Origin: an uncultured Oscillospiraceae bacterium
GTDB taxonomy: Bacteria; Bacillota; Clostridia; Oscillospirales; Ruminococcaceae
DNA length: 37,060 bases
Assembly (NCBI GenBank): GCA_949297385.1
Contig: CASFSP010000067.1
Location: 1-37,060, forward strand
Reading direction: 5' to 3'
This document shows positions 18,504-27,892 of the stretch, in pieces. A program made the translations under genes and the position numbers. How positions within the stretch are numbered: position 1 is the stretch's first letter; each line of letters starts with the position of its first letter. The notes below the pieces were generated by a model. The model did no database searches. It was not told where the DNA came from and worked only from the letters and a program-made list of their open reading frames with translations.

Positions 18504-18938
18504 TTATTCAGTCAGCCTGCGCTTTTCCTTTTTGATAATCCTGTATGTAACAAGCAGGGACAAAGCACCCATAACGCCGTAGGAAACATACAGAGCCGCC
18601 AGCATAGTATCTTCTCCGGCAAAATCCCAGGACGCCAGAAACGCAGCCAATAAAAGGAAAGGAACGATTATAAACCGCCGGTATATTATTGTCAGCCGTT
18701 TTTTTACCCGGGCGGGCAGTAGAGGCTTGTATTCTTCTTTTCCTGTTATGCTGCCTATGCGCCGGCAGGCGAAAGCCCAGCCGGAAATTGCCGACACCGC
18801 CCAGGCATTTGAAAAATCGGAACGGCCGGCGGAAAACATTACCGAGTTGAAGGCGCACCGCGCCAGGGCAATGCCTATTCCGGTAAAGACATTTTGCAAA
18901 CTTAACAGGTATTGATATTTGTATTGGTTTTCACTCAT
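18504..18938 (-). CDS. Hypothetical membrane protein
   Basis: This 144-aa protein has hydrophobic segments near residues 14-32 and 45-62, then two strong helices (IIVPFLLLAAFLASWDF and ALYVSYGVMGALSLLVTYRII) and a basic C-terminus. No family recognised. GGAGG precedes the ATG. A plausible minus-strand promoter, TTTACA (18987-18992), 18 bases, TATATA (18963-18968), lies just upstream. It is monocistronic and divergent from the pyr operon. Confidence 0.65.
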   Translation of the reverse strand: MSENQYKYQYLLSLQNVFTGIGIALARCAFNSVMFSAGRSDFSNAWAVSAISGWAFACRRIGSITGKEEYKPLLPARVKKRLTIIYRRFIIVPFLLLAAFLASWDFAGEDTMLAALYVSYGVMGALSLLVTYRIIKKEKRRLTE

Positions 18939-19148
18939 GGTTTTTGCCTCCGTTCTGTGCTGTATATATCAGGTGGAATAGCTATATGTAAATTTAATAA
19001 TATTAACGGAAAGCGCCGGGTTTCTTAACATAATTATAATTTATATATGTATAAATGTCAAAATTTCTCAAACCGCAGATAATAAAGTAAAAATCTGCTT
19101 TTGGCGAAGTTATACAAAAAATCAAAAATATTTACATAAAATTTTTCC

Positions 19149-19177
19149 TTGCAAATGGCATAGGCTTTTGATATAAT
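19149..19177 (+). promoter_or_regulatory. Promoter of the pyr operon
   Basis: TTGCAA (19149-19154), 17 bases, TATAAT (19172-19177), with TG at the extended -10 position. Transcription should begin near 19183-19186. The 190 bp upstream of it show only A/T-rich sequence and the divergent gene's promoter. Confidence 0.8.
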
Positions 19178-19186
19178 AAATCGAAA

Positions 19187-19232
19187 TGCCAAGAACGGCA
19201 ACACACACTGTCTTGGCAGTGTGTGCTTTTTT
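19187..19232 (+). promoter_or_regulatory. Short attenuator-like leader of the pyr operon
   Basis: A terminator hairpin, CACACACTG (19202-19210) with CAGTGTGTG (19217-19225) around loop TCTTGG, is followed by C and six Ts (19227-19232). Upstream TGCCAAGA (19187-19194) is fully complementary to TCTTGGCA (19211-19218), which spans the loop and the first two bases of the 3' arm, so the two pairings compete or form a pseudoknot. TGCC/GGCA (19187-19190, 19197-19200) can form a third small hairpin. The whole element is about 50 nt from the predicted start, too short for a usual PyrR-controlled leader, and no PyrR-binding loop was found. Control by pyrimidine level is inferred. Confidence 0.7.
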
Positions 19233-19274
19233 ATGTAATTTAATATTGTATTCGTTTAAGGAGGTAAACAAGAA

Positions 19275-20144
19275 GTGAAAAACTTATTTGATCTTTCAAG
19301 CCTTTGTGTAGAGGAAATAAACGCTATTCTGGACAGAGCCCGGCAGTTTGCCAATGGGGAGAAAAGCGACGCGGCAAAGGGCAAGGTTGTTGCCAGCCTT
19401 TTTTTTGAGCCCAGCACCAGAACACAAAACTCCTATTCCATGGCGGTAATGCGCCTGGGCGGCCAGGTTATCACCTTCAACAGCGAAGTTTCATCCATGA
19501 AAAAAGGCGAAACTTTTTATGACACTGTAAAAGTTTTCGAGTCTTTGGGGTGCGACGCAGCTATCATCCGCCACAGCGAGAACGAATACTACAAGCAGCT
19601 GACAAATATAAAAATGCCTATACTGTCCGGCGGTGACGGCACAGGCAATCACCCCACACAGAGCCTGCTGGACCTGCTGACAATCAAACAGGAATTTGGC
19701 AAATTTGAAGGGCTGAAAGTGTGCATCGTGGGCGATATAGTTCACTCCCGTGTGGCTCATACCGACATCGAGGTTATGCAGCGACTTGGAATGGAAGTGT
19801 ACACATCCGGCCCGGACGAGTTTAAAGAAGAGGGCTTTAACTACATCGACTTTGACAAAGCGGTAAAAGAGATGGATGTTATCATGCTGCTGAGAATACA
19901 GCACGAAAGGCTGTCCGGCGAAATGATAATGACCAAAGAAGATTACAACAAACAGTTTGGTCTGAATATGGACAGGGTCAAAGCCATGAAACCCAACGCC
20001 ATAATAATGCACCCGTCACCGTTCAACCGCGGTGTTGAAATAGATGATGACTGCGTTGAATGTGAAAAGAGCAGAATATTCAAACAGATGTCCAACGGCG
20101 TGTTTGTGAGAATGGCCGTGGTGGAACGCGCACTGAAAGACTGA
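19275..20144 (+). CDS. pyrB: Aspartate carbamoyltransferase catalytic subunit
   Basis: This 289-aa enzyme forms N-carbamoyl-aspartate, the committed step of pyrimidine synthesis. The carbamoyl-phosphate loop is FFEPSTRTQNSY (Gln where Arg/Lys is usual), followed by EVSSMKKGE, the HPTQSLLDLL motif, and MHPSPFNRGVEI near the C-terminus. It is slightly shorter than the usual 300-310 aa. The start is GTG with AAGGAGGT nine bases upstream. No pyrI regulatory subunit gene follows, as in other Gram-positive operons. Confidence 0.95.
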   Translation: MKNLFDLSSLCVEEINAILDRARQFANGEKSDAAKGKVVASLFFEPSTRTQNSYSMAVMRLGGQVITFNSEVSSMKKGETFYDTVKVFESLGCDAAIIRHSENEYYKQLTNIKMPILSGGDGTGNHPTQSLLDLLTIKQEFGKFEGLKVCIVGDIVHSRVAHTDIEVMQRLGMEVYTSGPDEFKEEGFNYIDFDKAVKEMDVIMLLRIQHERLSGEMIMTKEDYNKQFGLNMDRVKAMKPNAIIMHPSPFNRGVEIDDDCVECEKSRIFKQMSNGVFVRMAVVERALKD

Positions 20145-20151
20145 AAACATA

Positions 20152-20180
20152 CCCTGTGCACAAAATCAGACAGGGAATTT
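20152..20180 (+). terminator. Weak hairpin after pyrB
   Basis: CCCTGT (20152-20157) pairs with ACAGGG (20170-20175), followed by AATTTTT. It may reduce read-through into pyrC. The rest of the 198-bp pyrB-pyrC gap is A/T-rich with no confident promoter; a TTGACA at 20281 lacks a -10. Confidence 0.35.
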
Positions 20181-20300
20181 TTGCCATAAATACAATAGCC
20201 GCCGGCAAAAAAATGTGATAATATAATATATATAATATATATTTCATAAATTAAAGCCGGCAAAACAAATTTTAAATTTTTTGACAAAAGGAAATGTGTC

Positions 20301-20328
20301 GGCGGATTTGCTTTGCAAATTTGCCGCC
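20301..20328 (+). promoter_or_regulatory. Hairpin just upstream of the pyrC ribosome binding site
   Basis: GGCGG (20301-20305) and ATTTGC (20306-20311) pair with GCAAAT (20315-20320) and CCGCC (20324-20328) around a TTT loop, leaving a small TTG bulge. It ends about five bases before the pyrC Shine-Dalgarno and could stabilise the mRNA or modulate initiation. Confidence 0.45.
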
Positions 20329-20342
20329 CGGAAAGGAAAACT

Positions 20343-21611
20343 ATGCTTAATCTGTTGCTTAAAAACGGTACTGTTTATATTGACGGTCGGTTTAAAAAAG
20401 CTGATATGCTGATTAAAGACGGTATAGTTGCAGAGATTGGAGAAAAAATATCCATGGATAGTTGTCCCGTTGCCGACGCCGATAATTTGTTTATATTGCC
20501 GGGTTTCGCAGATGTACATGTACATCTGCGTGAGCCCGGTTTTTCTTATAAAGAAACTATTGCCAGCGGCAGCCGGGCAGCGGCCAGAGGGGGATTCACC
20601 CTTGTGTGCAGTATGCCCAACCTTAACCCTGTGCCGGACAGTGTGGAAAACCTGAAACGGGAACAGGACATAATAGACAGCGACGCAGTTATAAAGGTTA
20701 TGCCCTATGCCTCGATTACCAAAGGGGAAAAGGGGCAGGAGCTGGTGGACTTTGACCGGCTGGCGGATAAATGTTTTGCTTTTTCCGATGACGGCAAAGG
20801 TGTGCAGAGTGCCGATATGATGCGCCGGGCTATGGAAAAGGCAAAAGCGGCCGGAAAGGCGATAGTCGCCCACTGCGAGGATGAAAGCCTTTTGTGCGGC
20901 GGATATATCCATGACGGCGAATACGCCCGCCTGCACGGACACAAAGGAATATCCAGCGCCAGCGAATACCGGCAGGTGGCAAGGGATGTGGAGCTGGTGC
21001 GCGCCACAGGCGTACAGTATCATGTGTGCCATATATCCACCAAAGAGACGGTTGATATAGTCAGAAAGGCAAAGGCCGAAGGCCTGTCAGTAAGCTGCGA
21101 AACCGGCCCTCACTACCTGGCTTTCTGCGATATGGATTTGCAGGATGAGGGCAGATTTAAAATGAACCCGCCTATCAGGAGCGCAGCTGACCGAGATGCA
21201 CTGATACAGGGTATAAAAGACGGTACCATTGAAGTTATAGCCACTGACCACGCGCCCCACAGCCGGCGGGAAAAAACCAAAGGACTGGCGGGCAGCAGCA
21301 TGGGCGTCGTAGGGCTGGAAACCAGCTTTGCTGCGGTGAACACATACATGGTGCAGGCCGGCCACATCGGCTTGGAAAAGCTGGTAGAGATTATGAGCAT
21401 TAACCCCAGGAAGATATTCGGCCTTGACCGGGGAATAAAAATCGGTCAGAAAGCCGACTTCACTGTTGTGGATACACAGAAACAGTGGGTTGTTGACCCG
21501 GCGGAGTTTGTGTCTGCGGGTAAATTTACACCCTTTGAAGGGGTAAAACTTACAGGTGATGTACTGCTTACCGTTTATGACGGAGAGCTTGTATATAATA
21601 AATTGATATAA
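20343..21611 (+). CDS. pyrC: Dihydroorotase, class I
   Basis: This 422-aa amidohydrolase cyclises carbamoyl-aspartate to dihydroorotate. Metal ligands are seen in DVHVHLREPG (HxH), VAHCEDES, VCHIST and IATDHAPHS (catalytic Asp). MPNLNPVPDS is the substrate-binding motif. The Met at 20343 follows AAAGGAAAA; an in-frame Met ten codons upstream lies inside the hairpin and is unlikely. A 24-bp perfect DNA palindrome (20507-20530) covers the codons for the HxH motif. Confidence 0.95.
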   Translation: MLNLLLKNGTVYIDGRFKKADMLIKDGIVAEIGEKISMDSCPVADADNLFILPGFADVHVHLREPGFSYKETIASGSRAAARGGFTLVCSMPNLNPVPDSVENLKREQDIIDSDAVIKVMPYASITKGEKGQELVDFDRLADKCFAFSDDGKGVQSADMMRRAMEKAKAAGKAIVAHCEDESLLCGGYIHDGEYARLHGHKGISSASEYRQVARDVELVRATGVQYHVCHISTKETVDIVRKAKAEGLSVSCETGPHYLAFCDMDLQDEGRFKMNPPIRSAADRDALIQGIKDGTIEVIATDHAPHSRREKTKGLAGSSMGVVGLETSFAAVNTYMVQAGHIGLEKLVEIMSINPRKIFGLDRGIKIGQKADFTVVDTQKQWVVDPAEFVSAGKFTPFEGVKLTGDVLLTVYDGELVYNKLI

Positions 21612-21648
21612 GCAGGGAGGAATAGCGCCAAAAGCGCAAGGTTGTATT

Positions 21649-24600
21649 ATGCCAAAGAGAACAGATATTAAAAAAGTACTTGTGATAGGTTCAGGCCCTA
21701 TCGTTATAGGCCAGGCGGCCGAATTTGACTACGCCGGCACACAGGCCTGTATAGCATTGAAAGAAGAAGGTTACGAGGTTGTGCTGATAAACTCCAACCC
21801 CGCCACAATAATGACAGACACCAAAATGGCGGACAAGGTATATATGGAGCCGCTGACATTGGAATATGTGGCCAGAATTATCCGCAAGGAAAGACCGGAT
21901 GCAATCGTCCCCGGCCTGGGCGGCCAGACAGGCCTTAACCTGTGCGTACAGCTGGGTGAAAAAGGTGTGCTGGATGAATGTCAGGTAGAAGTTCTGGGTA
22001 CAAAGATTGAGTCCATCAAAAAAGCCGAGGACAGAGAGCTGTTCAAGGAAATGTGCCAGGAGCTGGGCGAGCCGGTTATCGCCAGTGAAATAGTTCACTC
22101 CATGCAGGAAGGTATTGAAGCAGCCGAAAGAATAGGCCTGCCGGTTGTTCTGCGCCCTGCATACACACTGGGCGGCACAGGCGGCGGTTTTGCCGATACA
22201 ATGGACGAGTTCAAAGAGATGATGGAACACGCCCTCAGCCTGTCTCCTGTTCATCAGGTTCTGGTGGAAAAGAGCGTAAAAGGCTATCAGGAAATAGAAT
22301 TTGAAGTAATGCGCGACAAGACAGACAAGGCCATTGCCATATGCGACATGGAAAACTTTGACCCTGTGGGTGTGCACACCGGTGACAGCATTGTTTTTGC
22401 TCCCTGCCAGACACTGAACAAAGATCAGCTGGCCATGCTGAAAGCCTCTGCGCTGAAAATACTCAAACATCTGGAAATCGAAGGCGGCTGTAATGTTCAG
22501 TTTGCACTGAAACCGGGCACAATGGAATATTACTTGATTGAAATCAACCCCCGTGTAAGCCGTTCTTCCGCGCTGGCTTCCAAAGCCACTGCTTACCCCA
22601 TAGCCAGGGTTACAGCCAAAATAGCCGTAGGCCTGACACTGGACGAAATCTCTATCAGCGGCATACCCGCATCCATTGAGCCGGCAATCGACTATGTTGT
22701 TGCCAAGGTTGCCCGCTTCCCGTTTGATAAATTTACATCTGCTTCCAACAAGCTGTCCACACAGATGAAGGCCACCGGCGAAGTTATGAGCCTGGGCCAG
22801 TCTGTGCAGGAAATCATGCTGAAAGCCGTAAGAGGTCTGGAAATAGGCGTTGACCATTTTGAAATGGCCAAATTCAAAGACTGGACAAAAGAAGAGCTGC
22901 TGGAATACATCGCAACTCCCACAGATGTAAGACTGTTTGCCCTGTGCGAAGCCATGAGAAAAGGCGCCACCACCCAGGAAATCAACAAGGCAACAGCCAT
23001 CATGCCCCAGCTGGTTGACCTGCTGAGAAGCGTAGTTGACTATGAAGAAGTAATCAAAGCCAATGTAAAAGATGTACAGGTGCTGAAAAAGGCCAAGGAC
23101 ATGGGCTTCTCCGACAGCTACATCGGAAAATGCTGGAATATGAGCAAACTGGATGTGTTCCGTTTCAGAAAAGAAAACGGTGTAATGCCCATCTACCGCA
23201 TTGTTGACAATGTAAAATATCAGCAGGATTATGTGCCTTATTTCTACTCCAGCTACCACGGAGAAAACGAAAGTATAGTAACCGACAAAAAGAAAATACT
23301 GGTGCTGGGTTCCGGCCCGATCAGAATCGGTCAGGGTGTAGAGTTTGACTACTCCACAGTTCATGCCGTATGGGCAATCAAAGAGGCCGGTTACGAAGCC
23401 ATTATCATAAACAACAACCCGGAAACAGTTTCCACCGACTACACCACCGCTGACAAGCTGTACTTTGAGCCGCTGACAGTGGAAGATGTTATGAATGTAA
23501 TCGACCTGGAAAAACCCGAAGGTGTAATAGTATCACTTGGCGGTCAGACAGCTATCAACCTGGCAGGCAGCCTGGATGAGCTGGGCGTAAACATCATCGG
23601 TACAGATGTTGAGGCCATTGAAAAAGCTGAAAACCGCGACAGCTTTGAAAAGATCATGCACACACTGGAAATCCCTGAGCCCAAAGGTGAAGCAGTTACC
23701 AACATTGAAGACGGCGTGAAGGTTGCCAACAAGATAGGTTATCCGGTGCTGGTTCGCCCCTCCTATGTTCTGGGCGGTAGAGCCATGCAGATTGTGCGCA
23801 ATGATGATGATCTGAGAAAATACCTGAGAACAGCCGTTCTGGTGGATGAAGATCAGCCGGTACTGGTTGACAAATACATTATCGGCAAAGAGCTGGAAAC
23901 AGACGCTATCTGCGACGGCAAGGATGTATTTATCCCCGGTATCATGGAGCATGTAGAGGAAACCGGCGTTCACTCCGGCGACAGTATCTCTGTATATCCG
24001 GCACACACCATCAGCAAAGAAGTTAAAAATACAATCATCGATTACACAATCAAATTGGGCCTGGGCATCGGCATCAAAGGTCTGTTCAACATTCAGTTTA
24101 TCGTTGACGAGTTTGACAATGTATATGTAATCGAGGTTAACCCCCGTTCTTCCAGAACAGTTCCGTTCCTGTCCAAATCCACAGGTGTTCCCATGGCAAA
24201 TGTTGCCACAAAGGTAATGCTTGGCCACACACTGAAAGACCTGGGCTACGGCACTTATGTACAGGAAGAGGCCAAACGCTACTATGTAAAAGTGCCCACC
24301 TTCCCGTTCTCCAAGATAAGAGGCCTGGACGCTTACTTGTCACCTGAAATGAAATCCACCGGCGAAGCCATCGGTTATGATGTAAAACTGAACCGCGCCC
24401 TGTACAAAGCATTGCAGGCCGCCGGCACAAAAGTGCAGAACTACGGCACAGTTCTGGTGACACTGGCCGACAAGGACAAACAGAGAGCCCTGCCGCTGGT
24501 AAGGCGTTTCTACGACCTGGGCTTTAACATTGAAGCCACAGAGGGCACAGCCGCATTCTTGAAGAGAAACGGTATCAAGACAAGGGTAAAAGCCAAGATT

Positions 24601-24825
24601 TCTGACGGCAGCAATGACATTATCGACAGCCTGACAAAAGGTTATGTAACCTATGTTATCAACACACAGGATATAGGCGCTGATACACATCATGACGGCT
24701 TCCTTATCCGCCGCTATGCCGTTGAAAACAACATAGGTATGTTTACCAGTCTGTCCACTGTAAATGTACTGCTGAATGTTTTGGAAGAAATCACACTGCC
24801 GGTATCCACAATAGACGCCGAATAA
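21649..24825 (+). CDS. carB: Carbamoyl-phosphate synthase large subunit
   Basis: This 1058-aa protein has two homologous ATP-grasp halves. The first opens VLVIGSGPIVIGQAAEFDYAGTQAC, the second at about residue 550 with ILVLGSGPIRIGQGVEFDYSTVHAVWAIKE. The C-terminal allosteric MGS-like domain has GTAAFLKRNGIKTR. It makes carbamoyl phosphate from bicarbonate, ammonia and two ATP, with ammonia normally delivered by CarA, whose gene is absent here. GGGAGG lies 28 bases upstream with a GCGC hairpin between; AAGG at 21638-21641 is the better-spaced ribosome site. Confidence 0.97.
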   Translation: MPKRTDIKKVLVIGSGPIVIGQAAEFDYAGTQACIALKEEGYEVVLINSNPATIMTDTKMADKVYMEPLTLEYVARIIRKERPDAIVPGLGGQTGLNLCVQLGEKGVLDECQVEVLGTKIESIKKAEDRELFKEMCQELGEPVIASEIVHSMQEGIEAAERIGLPVVLRPAYTLGGTGGGFADTMDEFKEMMEHALSLSPVHQVLVEKSVKGYQEIEFEVMRDKTDKAIAICDMENFDPVGVHTGDSIVFAPCQTLNKDQLAMLKASALKILKHLEIEGGCNVQFALKPGTMEYYLIEINPRVSRSSALASKATAYPIARVTAKIAVGLTLDEISISGIPASIEPAIDYVVAKVARFPFDKFTSASNKLSTQMKATGEVMSLGQSVQEIMLKAVRGLEIGVDHFEMAKFKDWTKEELLEYIATPTDVRLFALCEAMRKGATTQEINKATAIMPQLVDLLRSVVDYEEVIKANVKDVQVLKKAKDMGFSDSYIGKCWNMSKLDVFRFRKENGVMPIYRIVDNVKYQQDYVPYFYSSYHGENESIVTDKKKILVLGSGPIRIGQGVEFDYSTVHAVWAIKEAGYEAIIINNNPETVSTDYTTADKLYFEPLTVEDVMNVIDLEKPEGVIVSLGGQTAINLAGSLDELGVNIIGTDVEAIEKAENRDSFEKIMHTLEIPEPKGEAVTNIEDGVKVANKIGYPVLVRPSYVLGGRAMQIVRNDDDLRKYLRTAVLVDEDQPVLVDKYIIGKELETDAICDGKDVFIPGIMEHVEETGVHSGDSISVYPAHTISKEVKNTIIDYTIKLGLGIGIKGLFNIQFIVDEFDNVYVIEVNPRSSRTVPFLSKSTGVPMANVATKVMLGHTLKDLGYGTYVQEEAKRYYVKVPTFPFSKIRGLDAYLSPEMKSTGEAIGYDVKLNRALYKALQAAGTKVQNYGTVLVTLADKDKQRALPLVRRFYDLGFNIEATEGTAAFLKRNGIKTRVKAKISDGSNDIIDSLTKGYVTYVINTQDIGADTHHDGFLIRRYAVENNIGMFTSLSTVNVLLNVLEEITLPVSTIDAE

Positions 24826-24837
24826 CGATAAAAATAA

Positions 24838-24857
24838 CGGGCCGGTTTTCCGGCCCG
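24838..24857 (+). promoter_or_regulatory. GC-rich hairpin between carB and pyrK
   Basis: CGGGCCGG and CCGGCCCG form a perfect 8-bp stem with a TTTT loop. No T tract follows, so it is more likely an mRNA-processing or stabilising stem than a terminator. Confidence 0.55.
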
Positions 24858-24878
24858 CAAAATAAAAAGGAGAGCCCG

Positions 24879-25616
24879 ATGTACAAAAGAAATATCTACA
24901 CTGTCACGGAGAACAAAAAGATAGCCAAAGATGTTTTTTACATGATTTTGGAGGGTGACACATCCTATATCACTGCTCCCGGACAGTTTATAAACATTGA
25001 AATTGACGGTTTTTATCTGAGAAGGCCAATATCCGTATGCGACTGGGACGAAAAGACCATAACCATAATCTACAAGGTTGTGGGTCAGGGCACACAGGCC
25101 ATGGCAGATATGCCCGCCGGCACCAAGCTGGATATACTCACCGGCCTGGGCAACGGTTTCACCGTAGCCAAAGACAGCAAAACCCCGCTGGTTATAGGCG
25201 GCGGCGTGGGCACACCTCCCATGTACGCGCTGACAAAAGAGCTGATAAAACAGGGCGCAAAGCCAACTGTCATCCTGGGCTTTACCAGCAAGGACGATGT
25301 GTTTGGTGAAAAAGAGTTCAGAGACCTGGGCTGTGAAGTGTATATCACCACCAACGACGGAAGCTACGGCACCAAAGGTTTTGTAACCGATGTTATCAAA
25401 AATCTGTCCGGTTACGATTATTTCTACACCTGCGGCCCCATGGCAATGCTGAAAGCTGTGGCACAGTCCACAGAATGTTCCGGCCAGCTGTCTTTTGAAG
25501 AGAGAATGGGCTGCGGTTTCGGCGGCTGCATGGGCTGCAGCTGCAAAACACTGACAGGCTACAAGAGAATTTGCACCGAAGGCCCGGTATTGTTGAAGGA
25601 GGAAATTATATGGTAA
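24879..25616 (+). CDS. pyrK: Dihydroorotate dehydrogenase electron-transfer subunit
   Basis: This 245-aa subunit carries electrons from PyrD FMN to NAD. Its FAD domain shows LRRPISVCDWDE; the NAD-binding part has VIGGGVGTPPMYAL; the C-terminal [2Fe-2S] site has CGFGGCMGCSCKTLTGYKRIC. It overlaps pyrD by 7 nt, consistent with the PyrDB-PyrK heterotetramer of anaerobic and Gram-positive bacteria. AGGAG precedes the start. Confidence 0.95.
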   Translation: MYKRNIYTVTENKKIAKDVFYMILEGDTSYITAPGQFINIEIDGFYLRRPISVCDWDEKTITIIYKVVGQGTQAMADMPAGTKLDILTGLGNGFTVAKDSKTPLVIGGGVGTPPMYALTKELIKQGAKPTVILGFTSKDDVFGEKEFRDLGCEVYITTNDGSYGTKGFVTDVIKNLSGYDYFYTCGPMAMLKAVAQSTECSGQLSFEERMGCGFGGCMGCSCKTLTGYKRICTEGPVLLKEEIIW

Positions 25617-26518
25617 ACACAAAAGTAACACTGTCCGGCTGGCAGCTGGACAACCCGGTAATTCCCGCTTCCGGCACATTCGGCTACGGCAACGAATTCA
25701 AGGATTTTTATGATATAAACATCCTGGGCAGCTTTTCTTTCAAAGGCACCACAAAAGAGCCCCGTTTCGGCAACCCCACACCCAGAATTGCCGAAACTCC
25801 CATGGGTATGATAAACTCCGTAGGTTTGCAGAACCCCGGTATACACGCGGTTATCGACCACGAACTGCCTCAGCTGAAAAAATTCTTTGACAAAAAAGTT
25901 GTGGCCAACATCTCCGGCTTTTCCATCGATGAATATGCTTACTGCTGCCAGCTGATAGACAAAGAAGACCAGGTGGGCATAATCGAAGTAAATGTATCCT
26001 GCCCCAATGTGGACCACGGGGGAATGGCTTTCGGCACAGATGCGGCCAATGTGGCAGCGGTTACCAGAGCGGTAAAGGCTGTTACAACCAAGCCGGTATA
26101 CATCAAGCTCAGCCCCAATGTAACTGATATAGTCCCCATTGCCAAAGCGGCAGAAGAAGCCGGCGCAGACGGCCTGAGCCTTATCAACACTTTGCTGGGC
26201 ATGAGAATAGACCTGAGAACAGGCAAGCCGGTAATAGCCAACACCATGGGCGGTTTTTCCGGCCCGGCCATATTCCCGGTGGCTTTGAGAATGGTATACC
26301 AGGTGGCAAAAGCGGTAAAAATCCCGGTTATCGGCATGGGCGGTGTGTCCAGCGCTGAAGATGTAATCGAGATGATGTACGCCGGTGCAACAGCGGTACA
26401 GGTGGGTGCGGCCAACCTGAAAAACCCCTATGTCTGCAAAGAGATTATTGAAAACCTGCCCAAAGTTATGGAAAGGTATGGTATAAAAGACCTTAACGAT
26501 ATAATCGGCAAAGCATAA
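25610..26518 (+). CDS. pyrD: Dihydroorotate dehydrogenase, class 1B catalytic subunit
   Basis: This 302-aa FMN enzyme oxidises dihydroorotate to orotate using NAD through PyrK. The class 1 active-site cysteine is in [16 protein letters not shown]/phosphate binding is in [28 protein letters not shown]. The start at 25610 follows GAAGGAGG inside the end of pyrK; an in-frame upstream Met (25571) has no such site. Confidence 0.95.
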
Positions 26519-26529
26519 AGGAGGATATT

Positions 26530-27228
26530 ATGCAAAGAGATGTAATTATTGCGCTGGATTTTAAAGACGGACAGACCGCCCTGAACTTCCTGGACAAATT
26601 TACCGACGAGAAACCTTTTGTAAAAATCGGCATGGAACTGTTTTATGCCGAAGGCCCGTCCATTGTAAAAGCTATAAAGGAAAGAGGCCACAAAATTTTC
26701 CTGGATCTGAAACTCCATGACATCCCCAACACCGTAAAAGGCGGCATGAGAAGCCTGTCAAAGCTGGGCGTTGACATTGTGAATGTACACGCCGCAGGCA
26801 CAATCGAAATGATGAAAGCCGCGCTGGAAGGCGTTGTAAGGGAGGACGGCAGCCGTCCGCTGGTTATCGCTGTAACACAGCTGACATCCACCAGCGAAGA
26901 GAGAATGCAGAAAGAACTGCTGATAAACTCTTCTATCAATGATACCATTGTACACTATGCAAAAAACACCAAGGAAGCCGGCCTGGACGGCGTTGTATGT
27001 TCACCGCTGGAAGCAGGCATGGTGAAAGAGGCTGTGGGCAAAGATTTCCTGACAGTTACACCCGGTGTAAGATTTGCAGACGGTGACAAAGGCGACCAGG
27101 TGCGTGTGACTACACCGGCAAGGGCAAAAGAAATCGGCACAGACTTTATCGTTGTGGGCCGTCCCATCACCCAGGCCGAAGACCCGGTGGCCGCATATCG
27201 CCGCTGTGTAAAAGAATTCTGTGAATAA
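26530..27228 (+). CDS. pyrF: Orotidine 5'-phosphate decarboxylase
   Basis: This 232-aa TIM-barrel enzyme converts OMP to UMP. It begins [21 protein letters not shown] and contains the catalytic K/D array in [16 protein letters not shown]. The phosphate-gripper end reads [17 protein letters not shown] and [12 protein letters not shown]. It starts 11 bases after pyrD with GGAGG. Confidence 0.95.
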
Positions 27229-27259
27229 TAAATTTTGAATAGATAAAGGAGAAATTATT

Positions 27260-27892
27260 ATGGAAAAGAAGATTGCAAAGCATCTGCTGGACATCGGCGC
27301 TGTTTTCCTGCGCCCCGATGAACCCTTTACCTGGGCATCCGGTATCAAAAGCCCTATCTACTGCGACAACCGTCTGACACTGTCCTACCCCGAGGTAAGA
27401 AATGATATCGAACACGGCCTGGCAGAACTTATCAAAAAAGAATATCCCGAATGTGAAGCCGTATTCGGCACATCCACAGCCGGTATTGCCCATGCAGCCA
27501 TAGTTGCTGACATCATGGGTCTGCCCATGGGTTATGTTCGCGGCAGTGCCAAAGACCACGGCAGAACCAACCAGATAGAAGGTAAAGCAGTGCCTGGCAG
27601 TAAGGTTGTTGTTATCGAAGACCTTATCTCTACCGCCGGCAGCTGTGTTGATGTTGTAAATGTTCTGCGTGAAGCAGGCTGCGAAGTTCTGGGTATCGCA
27701 TCCATATTTACATACGGCATGCAGAGAGGCCTGGACCGCATGGCAGAAAACAATGTAAGAAATGTTTCCCTGTCCAATCTGGACGCTCTGGTAGAGGTTG
27801 CCGCACAGCATGGCTTCATCAAGGAAAGCGACATAAAGAGAATTCTCACATTCCGTGCCAACCCCTCTGATCCTGCATGGAAAGACGCATAA
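27260..27892 (+). CDS. pyrE: Orotate phosphoribosyltransferase
   Basis: This 210-aa type I PRTase joins orotate and PRPP. The PRPP signature is [19 protein letters not shown]; the flexible loop has [15 protein letters not shown]; the N-terminus has [22 protein letters not shown]. It is the last gene of the operon, with AAAGGAG upstream and a terminator 15 bases after the stop. Confidence 0.96.

Follow-up and report, generated by a model that had tools for sequence, protein, structure and literature searches.

In the window, the 37,060-nucleotide stretch of DNA analysed here, a 50-nt leader (19183-19232) separates a promoter with an extended -10 from a pyr operon of the order pyrB-pyrC-carB-pyrK-pyrD-pyrF-pyrE (19275-27892). 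Three hairpins interlock in it: the 5' hairpin H1; T, the hairpin of an intrinsic terminator; and A, a helix of 8 bp (TGCCAAGA/TCTTGGCA) that is mutually exclusive with the other two. The best reading of this leader is a real, conserved and compact attenuator, restricted to one genus and independent of PyrR, and we consider it probable that it works by means of alternative hairpins. The conserved competition between the folds points to a pyrimidine switch of very small size, with an input signal that we infer.

Organization of the leader and its surroundings

The features of the region are collected in Table 1. The core of the promoter, CTTGC and TTTGATATAAT, is kept among the congeners that carry the leader.

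Table 1. Features of the pyr leader and of the DNA next to it, in window coordinates
Feature	Position	Strand	Description
Promoter	19149-19177	+	-35 TTGCAA, 17-nt spacer, extended -10 TGATATAAT (TTGCAA-17-TATAAT with a TG extension on the -10); 3' end at 19177
Predicted transcription start zone	19183-19186	+	6-9 nt past the -10, placed by the spacing rule
H1, 5' hairpin TGCC-AAGAAC-GGCA (anti-antiterminator)	19187-19200	+	Stem arms TGCC 19187-19190 and GGCA 19197-19200; in 6 of 6 distinct leaders despite a 1-nt loop indel
Helix A, 5' strand TGCCAAGA	19187-19194	+	Complementarity, folding, covariation
Helix A, 3' strand TCTTGGCA	19211-19218	+	Lies in the loop and upper 3' arm of the terminator; L025 has three doubly compensated pairs
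T, intrinsic terminator hairpin, 10 bp	19202-19225	+	Stem arms 19202-19211 and 19216-19225, then a T6 tract at 19227-19232; three pairs changed on both sides among leaders
U tract of the terminator	19227-19232	+	UTP-dependent timing window in the kinetic model
Possible leaderless ORF (putative), 30 codons	19186-19278	+	Begins with an ATG at the predicted 5' end; its TGA overlaps the GTG of pyrB
pyrB Shine-Dalgarno GGAGG	19260-19264	+	Read from the sequence
pyrB	19275-20144	+	First gene of the operon

Tens of bases 5' of the -35, a weakly conserved TTTGTATAACTTNTCYAAA-like motif is present in the window (19071-19090, where it is partly inverted) and at the same place in congeners; this motif is a possible operator or UP element. 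A promoter that matches the sigma-70 consensus perfectly (TTGACA-17-TATAAT, 19061-19033, minus strand) is directed away from the pyr operon and faces a 144-aa ORF (18504-18938) that has no NCBIfam match.

Among the congeners, carA passes the curated cut-off in only 4 of 16, though several nearly complete genomes have pyrB, and the gene may have been lost or have diverged in the genus. Upstream of carA in G014 (L079:1201-1500) there is a short ORF with a terminator (GGGTGACTGTCTCAGTCACCC, T-rich tail), a possible separate attenuator.

Helix A competes with H1 and with the terminator

The two strands of helix A are perfect 8-nt complements, and the minimum-energy fold of the leader is H1 + T, at -20.5 kcal/mol (z = -4.1). 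Thus, the terminator hairpin overlapped by a perfect 8-bp alternative pairing, proposed in an earlier sequence-only reading of this DNA, was borne out. When the 5' segment was shuffled, the first 14 nt had an equally long match to the terminator region in 0.4% of cases, and 24 of 5000 shuffles reached an A state of this stability.

When the six distinct leaders known from the genus (see below) were folded at growing length, all of them followed the same path: H1, then A, then H1 + T. With some 15-17 nt exposed the fold was H1; at roughly 33-39 nt it was helix A, lengthened by CGG/CUG or a similar pairing, and from about 38-41 nt onwards H1 + T. Once the 3' strand of A is out and while the terminator arm is still inside, each of the six leaders has A as its minimum-energy fold. 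Note that a pseudoknot of full A with intact T is sterically implausible and not expected, since A and T share 19216-19218 and the connector between the 3' strand of A and the 3' arm of T has zero length. Of the pseudoknot-capable pairings claimed earlier, the competing helix therefore stands and the full pseudoknot does not; among pseudoknot-like contacts, only a short loop-loop contact could form.

The leader could also be a terminator with little or no regulation, in which helix A is passive or makes a loop-loop contact that stabilises the terminator. No other final fold comes near T + H1 in stability (about -20 kcal/mol), and the covariation described below comes from a single lineage; both points speak for such an element. 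The three exact compensations, the invariant GG of the terminator loop and the conservation of the leader beyond that of its flanks argue in the opposite direction, and we regard this explanation as improbable.

The leader is conserved in the genus and helix A covaries

The leader lies beside a pyrB of the same type in 8 of the 16 genomes of the genus, in six distinct sequences. The window and G015 share a leader identical at 53 of 53 positions, with upstream DNA identical at 152 of 180 and third positions of pyrB diverged by 16%. In the other congeners the upstream DNA aligns poorly; promoter and leader are still recognisable. Five of the six distinct leaders read CCAAGA...TCTTGG, and the sixth, L025, whose pyrB is 80% identical to that of the window, reads CCGGA...TCCGG. 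The swap of AAG/CTT for GGA/TCC amounts to three double compensatory changes in helix A (A-U to G-C twice, G-C to A-U once). Counted over the leader alignment (A3), helix A has 97.9% pairing and three pairs changed on both sides, a level of covariation matched by 2 of 500 shuffles; slid controls gave at most one such pair. T covaries as well. Covariation had been set beforehand as the test of the alternative helix, and it was found, in a single lineage. Because all the changes in A fall in one divergent lineage of one genus, we consider that these alignments give good but not overwhelming evidence for the helix.

The three covarying pairs of A all sit in the two hairpin loops and would also fit a loop-loop contact in place of helix A. 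However, the terminator loop has an invariant GG; it pairs with the CC of H1 in helix A, and the terminator stem does not need both of these bases. This invariance beyond the need of the stem speaks for the whole alternative helix rather than for a contact of the loops alone. Conservation and covariation together uphold the earlier view of a short attenuator leader with a competing helix and no PyrR control.

A covariance model of the leader (R1), run over 258 genomes of the family, revealed no further true leader copy among the matches inspected. The remaining matches of 22-34 bits that were inspected were ordinary terminators or unrelated sequence, none of them upstream of pyrB, and a second exact copy in G015, located at a contig end, is most likely an assembly overlap. 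In these genomes, the device looks restricted to the genus. L028 (pyrB 63% identical) has the 5' AUG and a terminator and lacks helix A, a point against the proposed mechanism. L029, without a U-tract terminator, was not retained.

Two further pyrB loci are of note. In the AT-rich L026 (1400-1500; pyrB 81% identical), the leader has an A-like hairpin (AGCAAGATAG/CTATTTTGCT) and neither a terminator nor an ATG. L027, on a contig labelled Candidatus Arthromitus, has a pyrB 85% identical to that of the window, which reflects either contamination or horizontal transfer.

The leader is independent of PyrR

In the Rfam search, the PyrR-binding RNA model (RF00515) had no match in the window at the gathering score, whereas the positive controls, two leaders from other Clostridia (L047 and L048), matched it in the same kind of search. 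In the genome that contains the window (97% complete), the best match to the pyrR model scored 34.7 bits against a cut-off of 138, and none of the 15 congeners passed the curated cut-off. The same model did so in 20 of the 61 genomes searched, including other genera of the family, and 30 other pyrB upstream regions from the class showed, as judged by eye, mainly PyrR-type motifs. The sequence-only reading, which had seen neither a PyrR-binding motif nor a pyrR gene, was therefore correct on both. With its three competing hairpins the leader resembles the PyrR-dependent attenuators in its working; having neither an RF00515 match nor a pyrR gene, it is not a member of that class.

In PyrR attenuation, PyrR stabilises the anti-antiterminator. 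Another trans-acting RNA-binding protein, or some other factor, might stabilise H1 in the same manner when pyrimidines are in excess; the logic would be that of the PyrR leaders, and H1 is present in all six distinct leaders. We think this quite unlikely, since the H1 loop of L025 is wholly different, with the stem and the complementarity alone kept, and no candidate regulator is found among the genes of the operon, nor is PyrR.

The replacement of this loop also disfavours the tiny riboswitch-like element that had been suggested, in the sense of a ligand aptamer. No conserved ligand-binding core is apparent in the leader alignment and there is no Rfam match; the conserved bases are mainly those needed for pairing, for the U tract and for the AUG.

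The start site had been proposed as well to allow UTP-dependent slippage on its AAAU. This sequence is present at the 5' end in the window and in most congeners, and slippage on A repeats is common in another Firmicute (PMC4448216). However, L024 has an interrupted A-run (GAGATG) and L025 has none (GACGATG), and the hairpins persist in both; moreover, additional A residues would leave helix A unextended. Among the congener leaders there is no conserved start homopolymer whose extension pairs with the terminator. UTP-sensitive slippage is thus very improbable as the control.

A ribosome-coupled alternative

In E. coli pyrBI attenuation, a translated leader ORF spans the terminator, and UTP-dependent readthrough needs ribosomes. 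The main rival to an attenuator of alternative hairpins is a ribosome-coupled one of this type with a leaderless ORF: low UTP would stall the polymerase in the U tract, and a ribosome coming from the 5' AUG would cover an arm of the terminator and prevent termination. An AUG is found in every leader 6-8 nt past the -10, including L025, where the spacing is altered, and L028, which lacks helix A, and it lies 0-2 nt from the predicted 5' end; L031 has a GTG at its place. Moreover, several leader ORFs end overlapping the pyrB start or a few bases away from it. However, the UGCC of AUGCC is already needed by H1 and A, and a purine is needed by the start site. Although an ORF with a 5'-terminal AUG is present in all leaders, its peptide is not conserved, with frame-shifting indels between congeners, and the other frames are open too. 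In the window all three frames are open through T, and openness was therefore dropped as evidence of coding. Finally, a ribosome on the 5' AUG would destroy the conserved helix A, and pyrBI has no need of an antiterminator. We consider the ribosome-coupled alternative unlikely.

Leader-ORF look-alikes in L033, L035 and L036 were rejected, their ATG lying upstream of the predicted start. In the congener loci L011-L016, which have the other pyrB type and no terminator, a start codon is located about 8 nt past the -10 (TACAATTAAAAAAATGAAAAATTATG; GTG in L015) and about 25-40 nt 5' of pyrB, and its ORF is fused to pyrB or overlaps the pyrB start. This ORF is a candidate for a second leaderless leader ORF, behind an A-run.

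A proposed mechanism and a kinetic model of the UTP response

For the alternative-hairpin attenuator, we infer the start site, the order of folding in vivo and UTP as the signal. H1 would fold first, hiding the 5' strand of helix A. Once the terminator loop and GGCA are out, A would be more stable than H1 and would block the nucleation of T, resulting in antitermination. If A had not yet formed when the 3' arm of T emerges, T and H1 would form and transcription would halt before pyrB. Our leading guess for the input is the RNA polymerase's own speed. In the interval when A can form and T still cannot, the polymerase would be busy adding the U tract; low UTP would lengthen this interval, H1 would yield to A and the operon would be on, while at high UTP H1 would stay and T would be favoured. 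In this scheme H1 would set the delay, A would make the decision and the U tract would measure UTP.

This response was simulated with a kinetic model of simple helix zippers, in which pseudoknots, NusA and pausing were left out. If the polymerase shield is taken as 10 nt, nearly all the bases added during the decisive interval are U. With A present, the number of settings in which low UTP lowered termination, the right sign, went from only 26 of 60 at k0 = 3e6 through 45 of 60 at 1e7 to 57 of 60 at 3e7. In the model without A, low UTP always raised termination (lowered in 0 of 60 settings), and without H1 termination was near zero and readthrough constitutive. These runs point to a role for each helix. 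Note that the UTP effect shrinks or reverses if A needs 2-4 nt more polymerase clearance than T. The model shows the UTP-speed mechanism to be feasible, with the right sign under some assumptions only, and does not by itself establish its operation.

The whole statement, a PyrR-independent three-hairpin attenuator with UTP-set polymerase speed as its input, we advance tentatively and at somewhat less than even confidence. That it is a self-timed RNA switch without ligand pocket, protein or ribosome, in which H1 delays and the terminator U tract meters UTP, is possible though doubtful.

Discussion

The promoter, the three helices, the conservation of A and the absence of PyrR are supported by the sequences compared here. 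The leader shares with the PyrR-dependent pyr attenuators of Firmicutes (RF00515) the kind of operon and the logic of anti-antiterminator, antiterminator and terminator; unlike them, it has no PyrR motif, Rfam match or pyrR, and with about 50 nt, against the 115 positions of the Rfam model, it is about half the size. As in E. coli pyrBI, a leader terminator precedes pyrB, an ORF possibly spans it and UTP is a plausible signal. In contrast to pyrBI, the leader is not long and lacks a separate U-rich pause region, the AUG is at the very 5' end, and a competing helix, which pyrBI does not need, is conserved.

The B. subtilis pyrG attenuator depends on CTP-sensitive reiterative transcription, in which added G residues form the pairing strand. 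As there, the 5' end of our transcript is the antiterminating strand and no protein regulator takes part; the pairing strand, however, is encoded here and not made of added residues, and the start-site run is not conserved. Attenuation of B. subtilis pyrG is under slippage-based control (PMC4448216). In the open-access literature we found no leaderless or PyrR-independent pyrB attenuator of this kind in Firmicutes, which is weak evidence, most subscription papers being outside the scope of the search.

If UTP is sensed by the speed of the polymerase alone, this leader would be among the smallest attenuators and would provide a minimal, testable case of metabolite control through co-transcriptional folding, and it would illustrate how pyrimidine synthesis can stay under control in a lineage devoid of PyrR.
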